Source: Anaerolineaceae bacterium
GTDB lineage: Bacteria > Chloroflexota > Anaerolineae > Anaerolineales > Anaerolineaceae
Direction of reading: 5' to 3'
DNA length: 64,000 nt
Assembly: GCA_016841445.1 (NCBI GenBank)
Contig: JAENZD010000001.1
Coordinates: 1,054,001-1,118,000 of the forward strand
The notes under the pieces were generated by a model, which was not told the DNA's origin, ran no database searches, and saw only the letters and a program-made list of their open reading frames with translations. A program made the position numbers and the translations under genes. This document shows, piece after piece, positions 47,637 through 48,777 of this stretch (the first letter of the stretch is position 1; each line of letters opens with the position of its first letter).

Positions 47637-47662
47637 AAAGTCCGGAGTGCACTCCGGACTTT
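47637..47662. terminator. Bidirectional terminator between manA and the peroxiredoxin gene
   Basis: A perfect 26-bp palindrome (AAAGTCCGGAGTG and its complement) separates the convergent genes. The minus-strand tail CTTTTCGCTTTT matches the tail of the orphan terminator at 38.7 kb. Confidence 0.9.
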
Positions 47663-47688: not shown

Positions 47689-48402
47689 TTAATCGAAAGC
47701 TTCTTCTGGCTTCCATTCCATCCAAACCTTGCCTGCTAATGCCGGACTAGGTTTGAGAGTCTTTTTGCCAGGCTGCCACCCTGCAGGGGTAACTTCGCCG
47801 GTTTTGACGACATGCTGGAAAGCTTTCACCTGGCGAAGCAGCTCGACAACGTTGCGACCTACTTCAGTTGTCATGACTTCCATTGCACGAATGTTGAAAT
47901 CGGGGTCTATGAGGAAACGACCGCGGATATCGACACCGCTTTGCTCATCATAAACACCGTATAATTGACCGACCCTACCACCCGCATCGGCTAATAATGG
48001 AAACGGCACGCCGCCCTCCACCATTTTTGAAAGTTCTACTTCTTGCCAAATTTTGTGGGAGAAATGACTGTTTGTACTGATTGCCAAAAACTCCACACCA
48101 AGTTCCTGGAATTCGGGATATTTAACAGCGACCGCTGTTAGTTCGGTCGGTCAGACAAAGGTGAAATCCCCTGGATAGAAGCAAACAACGATCCATTTGC
48201 CTTTGTGATCGGATAATCTTATGTTTTTAAAACCCTCACCTTGAAAAGCAGTCAGCTCAAAATCAGGTGCGGGTTTTCCAACGCGTGCTATTTCCATAAA
48301 AGCCTCCTTTTTGGATGCAATTTCTGTTGGGTTGACTTCGGGTTTCTTTTGTACAATCGGGCCCTTGGAAGGGGTTGCACAACCTGCGGGTTTTTCTGGC
48401 AT
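47689..48402 (-). CDS. Selenocysteine-containing peroxiredoxin (AhpC/Prx1 family)
   Basis: Read through one in-frame TGA (48151-48153), the gene encodes 237 residues of a typical AhpC/Prx protein. The TGA replaces the peroxidatic Cys: PGDFTFV-U-PTELTA. The downstream frame is unbroken, ending [12 protein letters not shown]...GKVWMEW. The usual resolving Cys (VCPA) is Thr (VTPA), so it would be a 1-Cys (1-Sec) enzyme reducing peroxides with an external thiol. A SECIS-like hairpin follows the TGA. Two in-frame starts each have a ribosome site: 48402 (GGGAGGT) and 48297 (AAGGAGG, giving the canonical N-terminus). PrxU-type selenoproteins are known in anaerobes. The decoding genes lie outside the window. 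Confidence 0.88.
48123..48153 (-). promoter_or_regulatory. UGA and SECIS-like hairpin in the peroxiredoxin gene
   Basis: On the minus strand, ten bases after the TGA, TAACAGC pairs perfectly with GCTGTTA around the tetraloop GGTC (48130-48133). The loop begins 17 bases after the TGA. E. coli fdhF also carries GGUC in its apical loop, about 18 bases after the UGA. The hairpin should recruit SelB for selenocysteine insertion. Confidence 0.8.
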
Positions 48403-48777
48403 TCGACCTCCCGTGTTGAAATTTGGCGCAATAATATTCTCACTGAATCATAACATAGATTAATATTTTACAGCATTTTCCATAACTTTAATTTTTATGA
48501 AATGGAGCGGGAAATATTGCTGATATGCTTTTCGCTTCTATTGATCGAGGAAAGTTTATAACGATAATACTCAGGCAATTCACAAAATCAATTCACGTAA
48601 ACAGCTCTTGATGGATATGGTTAACAGCACGGTAATTATGAAATTAATGAATTACTCGGCAACCACCTTCAATTAAAGCTACAAATTACATATATCTGAG
48701 AAACATCAGTTTTAACCAAGGAGGGTTTGACGATATTCGTTTATAATGATCTACGATTACTCTCAAAAAGGTGAGTT
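48403..48777. other. AT-rich intergenic region between divergent peroxiredoxin and ggt genes
   Basis: No ORF, RNA gene or convincing promoter pair could be identified. The left end holds the GGGAGGT ribosome site for the peroxiredoxin and the right end AAGGTGA for the next gene. Both promoters must lie here. Confidence 0.5.

Follow-up and report, generated by a model that had tools for sequence, protein, structure and literature searches.

The name PrxU reportedly goes back to the selenocysteine (Sec) peroxiredoxin of Eubacterium acidaminophilum described by Sohling et al. in 2001. Passages of several surveys document how widespread such proteins are: 43 genes for Sec peroxiredoxins among the Sargasso Sea sequences (PMC1088965), 91 proteins from 78 organisms in 2016 (PMC5029168) and, catalogued in 2026, a Sec peroxiredoxin family with the motif TxxU (PMC13188914). 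For the Chloroflexi, the relevant passage of a 2006 survey gives three selenoproteins (PMC1794560), and passages on deep-sea members of the phylum describe Sec-containing formate dehydrogenases without using the word peroxiredoxin (PMC5736913). Among the titles and abstract openings returned by our literature search, no paper was recognised on a Sec peroxiredoxin of Chloroflexota, nor on an N-terminal resolving cysteine in PrxU, and an earlier report of either is possible. Because Sec peroxiredoxins are an established family and selenoproteins of Chloroflexi are known, the gene described here adds a member to a known kind. It is found in a 64,000 bp stretch of DNA (the window) from an Anaerolineaceae bacterium whose genome assembly (GCA_016841445.1; 3.35 Mb in 8 contigs) is 98.85% complete with 4.6% contamination.

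A peroxiredoxin reading frame with one internal UGA

The minus strand of the window carries, from position 47689 to 48402, one frame of 237 codons whose sole internal stop is the TGA at 48151–48153. Under the standard code it is listed as two ORFs in the same frame, an 83-amino acid piece (48151–48402) and a 135-amino acid piece (47689–48096), both on the minus strand. When the TGA is read as Sec a single protein of 237 amino acids results, with one recoded codon (U84) and a TAA stop. The UGA occupies the position of the peroxidatic cysteine (FTFV-U-PTE), so that the original prediction of two in-frame half-genes broken only at the catalytic residue holds. It also lies in the last position of the motif PxxxTxxU, which passages of PMC13188914 describe. 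A Shine-Dalgarno-like GGAGG (48407–48411, minus strand), read from the sequence, precedes the ATG by 4 nt. Downstream, a possible intrinsic terminator with an 11-pair stem and a T-rich tail (47637–47662, minus strand) was found by a scan in which about one such match is expected by chance.

Assignment to PrxU, also part of that prediction, was borne out by the NCBIfam equivalog model NF040737. With UGA translated as Sec the protein scores 368.8 bits, 98.8 above the cut-off of 270, and the match spans nearly the whole model, the N-terminal tail of the window protein included; a six-frame search with the same model gave 362.7 bits for the gene. The score with the AhpC equivalog TIGR03137 (183.1 bits) is below its cut-off of 272. 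Pfam identifies PF00578 (AhpC-TSA; E-value 6.4e-37) and a 1-cysPrx_C domain. We conclude that the gene is almost certainly intact and codes a Sec peroxiredoxin of the PrxU family, in which Sec would be inserted at the UGA by means of SelB and a bacterial SECIS element (bSECIS). This reading keeps the gene of an oxidative-stress enzyme from being labelled as broken.

The components for Sec insertion, whose absence from the genome would have spoken against a selenoprotein, are all four present. One SelB exceeds its cut-off (343 versus 242.25 bits, profile positions 2–581 of 581), as do SelA (533.1 versus 267.9 bits) and SelD (332.7 versus 125 bits), and one tRNA-Sec with anticodon TCA is found above the gathering score (69.5 versus 47 bits). 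Eight further tRNA-like matches are below the gathering score, and the three loci checked (L018–L020) are two tRNA-Ser and one tRNA-Leu. SelD (L098, G000:C6:427507-428439) is itself a Sec form, with an in-frame UGA in the motif SSCAGU. UGA serves also as a stop codon, since the SelA frame of the source genome terminates at UGA and the PrxU genes of two relatives (L063 and L089) stop at a UGA downstream of the recoded one.

Two more likely selenoproteins with an AhpC/TSA fold are encoded by the source genome, with UGA in the motifs UPYC (L004, 1429–1899) and UPFC (L007, 1423–1890). For both, the best NCBIfam match is a redox protein related to SelL, with scores (73.2 bits for L004 and 84 bits for L007) below the cut-off of 120. 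A decayed copy of an L007-like gene (L096, G000:C3:1523924-1524298) has the stretch of the UPFC site out of frame and contains a TAG.

The UGA codon in relatives and the hairpin that follows it

The PrxU cut-off was passed in 14 of 400 genomes of the phylum and in 94 of 396 genomes of the class (two overlapping sets); among the class matches listed nearly all have UGA. The count in the class points to Sec peroxiredoxins being common in this group, which has Anaerolineae bins as its nearest named relatives. A scan of named genomes yielded 36 loci, of which the nearest by name are from Anaerolineaceae; others were from Syntrophomonadaceae, Thermodesulfobacterium, Dehalococcoidia, one Krumholzibacteriota and one actinobacterial bin. 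For alignment, 151 loci matching the window protein were collected, the window included, while ten class matches above the cut-off were left out (G552, G423, G566, G405, G564 twice, G430, G611, G600 and G735); removal of four loci without the active-site stretch and of two duplicates left 145 distinct rows.

At the Sec site these rows have TGA in 113 cases, spanning several phyla, TGC in 25, TGT in six and CGA in one. The alternation of UGA and Cys codons (113 versus 31 of 145 rows) anticipated from the sequence is thus observed, and neither TAA nor TAG, either of which would have argued against recoding, occurs at this codon in any of the 145. The row with CGA (Arg; L165, genome G657) retains six of the seven hairpin pairs described below and lacks the N-terminus in its frame; it represents decay or an assembly error. 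Elsewhere in the extended frame TAA or TAG is found in seven rows, in six of them 149–162 codons past the Sec site, that is, around the end of the protein. The seventh (L036, genome G367) is the only row with a TAA ahead of the Sec UGA, which indicates that some PrxU copies are decayed or misread.

A peroxiredoxin pseudogene, inactivated by a lone nonsense change of the catalytic codon, would also display a single in-frame stop, and the decayed copy L096 is evidence that peroxiredoxin-like genes do degenerate in this genome. This explanation is nevertheless most improbable. The same stop recurs at the same codon in the same-genus relative L038 (80% identical) and in 111 other distinct rows, which argues against chance; the 113 UGA rows come from several phyla. 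The frame is open on either side of the UGA, and past the tail the changes relative to the same-genus relative number 29, 8 and 90 at codon positions 1, 2 and 3.

The distribution of SelB was compared with the form of the gene. It exceeded the cut-off in all 21 UGA-form genomes tested and in five (all of one genus) of nine tested genomes for which the match listed has Cys at the site; in two of these nine (G675 and G605) that match is below the PrxU cut-off. The five genomes imply that the Cys form needs no loss of the machinery and that the machinery does not force Sec. Two same-genus genomes (G168 and G343) have SelB and gave no PrxU match at 1e-50, so PrxU is patchy within the genus. A quick tree, built from 106 rows with no bootstrap, requires the Sec/Cys label to change at least four times, and two changes are forced by well-supported branches. 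A Cys form (L083) groups with three Sec forms (L079, L080 and L082) in a branch with an SH-aLRT of 100; the tree does not give the direction of this change. Six of seven hairpin pairs are kept in L083, which carries TGC inside the Sec branch, and its hairpin is perhaps a fossil bSECIS.

The putative bSECIS of the window gene (48123–48140, minus strand) was identified by folding and covariation. Its 7-bp stem begins 10 nt past the UGA and pairs positions 14–20 with 25–31, the U of UGA being position 1; the 4-nt loop is GGUC (48130–48133) and is spaced by 17 nt from the UGA. These dimensions agree with the published model of bacterial SECIS elements, for which passages of PMC13188914 give a loop of 3–9 nt with a G within its first two positions, an upper stem of 4–16 bp and a UGA-to-loop distance of 16–37 nt. 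In the window sequence alone the hairpin is a weak signal: random synonymous recodings of the stretch retain all seven pairs in 14% of cases and at least six in 61%, and single-sequence folding of 50 nt favours another structure, one that pairs the UGA itself. The case for a bSECIS rests therefore on covariation.

On average 6.26 of the seven pairs are kept in the 113 UGA rows versus 3.90 in the 31 Cys rows. In a register test on the first 41 distinct UGA rows the mean was 6.37 pairs, and all 38 slid registers gave lower values (maximum 4.34). The loop is GGUC or AGUU, its second base being G in 113 of 113 UGA rows. The most informative pair, 18–27, forms between third codon positions. In 112 rows the first of the two codons specifies Ala, Ser or Thr and the second Ala; in one row they specify Ala and Gly. 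It is a standard pair in 113/113 UGA rows and Watson-Crick in 112, compared with 66.5 ± 4.1 (maximum 82) in 10,000 permutations, although relatedness among rows inflates such covariation counts; its state changes at least 19 times among the 81 UGA rows of the quick tree. Seven of the 31 Cys rows have a standard pair there.

DNA alone leaves room, formally, for decoding of the UGA as an amino acid other than Sec, through a suppressor tRNA, a change of code or misreading as Trp or Cys. The complete set of Sec components in the source genome, the use of UGA as a stop in the SelA frame and in the PrxU genes of L063 and L089, the alternation of UGA and Cys codons in a redox position and a hairpin whose covariation is seen among the UGA rows but not among the Cys rows all speak against it, and we give it very little credence. 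In the favoured reading, insertion of Sec, the hairpin just 3′ of the UGA would let SelB bring Sec-tRNA(UCA), and the ribosome would place Sec at position 84.

Active site, resolving residue and N-terminal tail

An AlphaFold2 model of the window protein, computed with 23 sequences, has a mean pLDDT of 83.7, with residues 1–9 and 19–35 below 50. Sec84, modelled as Cys, begins a helix. The best solved matches in a structure search with the model are yeast TSA2, human Prx4 and human Prx2 (Z about 22). Pro77 and Arg160 are present in 144 of 144 rows counted, and Thr81 in all 113 Sec rows and 29 of 31 Cys rows, the other two having Ser. By established peroxiredoxin chemistry, the selenolate of Sec84, held by Pro77, Thr81 and Arg160, would reduce the peroxide and become a selenenic acid, which a thiol would then reduce.

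The source of this thiol is the less conventional aspect. The site of the C-terminal resolving Cys of typical 2-Cys peroxiredoxins (motif VCPA) is Thr205 in the window protein (47788–47790, minus strand, by alignment), which is thus outside the definition of that type. The reductant would then be either external, a thioredoxin-like protein or a small thiol, or Cys8 of the N-terminal tail. In the Sec rows residue 205 is Thr in 93, Met in 14, Leu in three, Ala in one, Cys in one and a gap in one; in the Cys rows it is Thr in 17, Cys in nine, Leu in three, Met in one and Val in one. The original prediction had linked the change of VCPA to VTPA with a selenolate that works with an external thiol. 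The change itself is real, but its link to Sec was rejected, as 22 of the 31 Cys rows also have a residue other than Cys there, and Cys8 is a possible partner besides an external thiol. Among the Sec rows, that of Thermodesulfobacterium hydrogeniphilum (L077) alone has retained VCPA and with it the C-terminal resolving Cys.

Residues 1–36 (48295–48402, minus strand) form an N-terminal extension, mostly of low confidence in the model. Its first 16 residues are common to the window protein and the same-genus relative, although conservation is lower across the first 40 codons as a whole, with 22 of 40 residues identical; the tail is likely coding sequence. Cys8 (48379–48381, minus strand) belongs to a tail motif [GS]C[VA]xP and is a candidate alternative resolving thiol. 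In an alignment whose rows were not selected for the tail, 89 Sec rows have a residue in its column, Cys in 88 of them, and 24 have a gap. The tail consensus is [GS]-C-[VA]-x-P-[AT]-x-G-P-[IL], which leads into a variable linker rich in Pro, Ala and Glu; it derives from 88 rows chosen by a pattern that itself demands Cys and, directly after it, V, A, Q or H. This loose pattern occurs in 88 of 113 Sec rows and three of 31 Cys rows (L083, L170 and L173), in which the Cys may be located upstream of the true start; a stricter pattern, which also constrains the residue preceding the Cys and three of those that follow, occurs in 85/113 and 0/31. Nine of the 31 Cys rows have a C aligned with Cys8, which at least in some belongs to a short start (MTCRIG, for example) and not to an extension.

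The 25 UGA rows without the tail pattern include two cut at a contig end (L084 and L085), and the UGA forms of Syntrophomonadaceae, Thermodesulfobacterium and others have no tail. The tail label changes seven times on the quick tree. Many Cys rows have little upstream frame, so the contrast is one of tail versus no tail, and the tail follows lineages. Cys74 (48181–48183, minus strand), ten residues ahead of Sec, is a marker of the PrxU clade by alignment and tree, present in 112 of 113 Sec rows and six of 31 Cys rows. It changes once on the quick tree, whose alignment contained its column. Repeated gain alongside Sec was rejected on this ground, and Cys74 is a lineage marker that by itself says nothing on the chemistry.

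One description of the cycle, to which we lean modestly, is a plain 1-Cys-like peroxiredoxin reduced by an external thiol, Cys8 having another role (metal binding, a partner, anchoring) or none. The UGA rows lacking the tail pattern (25 of 113, two of them truncated) agree with it, because they imply that a Sec peroxiredoxin does not require the tail; the retention of Cys8 in all but one of 89 rows, though much of the tail varies, does not. A single conserved Cys on a variable tether, in a protein without the usual resolving Cys, suggests a moved resolving residue. Under this second proposal, which we regard as tentative and rather doubtful, the tail Cys of tailed PrxU proteins would be carried close to the tip of a probably disordered N-terminal tether of ~35 residues and, in place of the lost C-terminal Cys, would resolve the selenenic acid by forming a selenenylsulfide, either within one subunit or with an adjacent one; Cys74 may join this adaptation. 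The conserved tail Cys offers a simple idea of how an enzyme might be recycled without the usual resolving residue.

Among the window genes adjoining PrxU, which code a phosphomannose isomerase, a gamma-glutamyltranspeptidase and a DegT-type aminotransferase, there is no clear reductant. The phosphomannose isomerase gene (L091, 3813–4820) adjoins PrxU in the window and in the same-genus relative. Twenty selected neighbour proteins of ten relatives were scanned and no common partner gene emerged: PrxU is found near genes for Fur and a ferredoxin-like protein in L062, a rubrerythrin-like protein in L089, Rrf2 in L064, and hemerythrin and desulfoferrodoxin in L077, the rest being varied or matchless.

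Comparison with known peroxiredoxins

The window protein shares its fold with the typical 2-Cys peroxiredoxins of the Prx1/AhpC type (PDB 4llr, 1qmv, 1n8j and 5dvb; Z 21.2–22.6, rmsd 2.2–2.9 Å, 37–45% identity), as well as the active-site Pro, Thr and Arg. It differs from them by Thr205 instead of the resolving Cys, Sec for the peroxidatic Cys, Cys74 for Phe and the N-terminal tail. Peroxiredoxin-like UxxC selenoproteins, described in passages of PMC1088965 and PMC13188914 and probably represented in the source genome by L004 and L007, belong to the same AhpC/TSA superfamily but carry UxxC, whereas the window protein has TxxU. The closest likeness is with PrxU, the thioredoxin-dependent peroxiredoxin of NF040737: the window protein is likewise above the cut-off and has Sec at the TxxU site. 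Nothing was found that sets it apart from this family, in which it was placed by the profile. Cys8 of the tail is the less ordinary feature of an otherwise known PrxU type.
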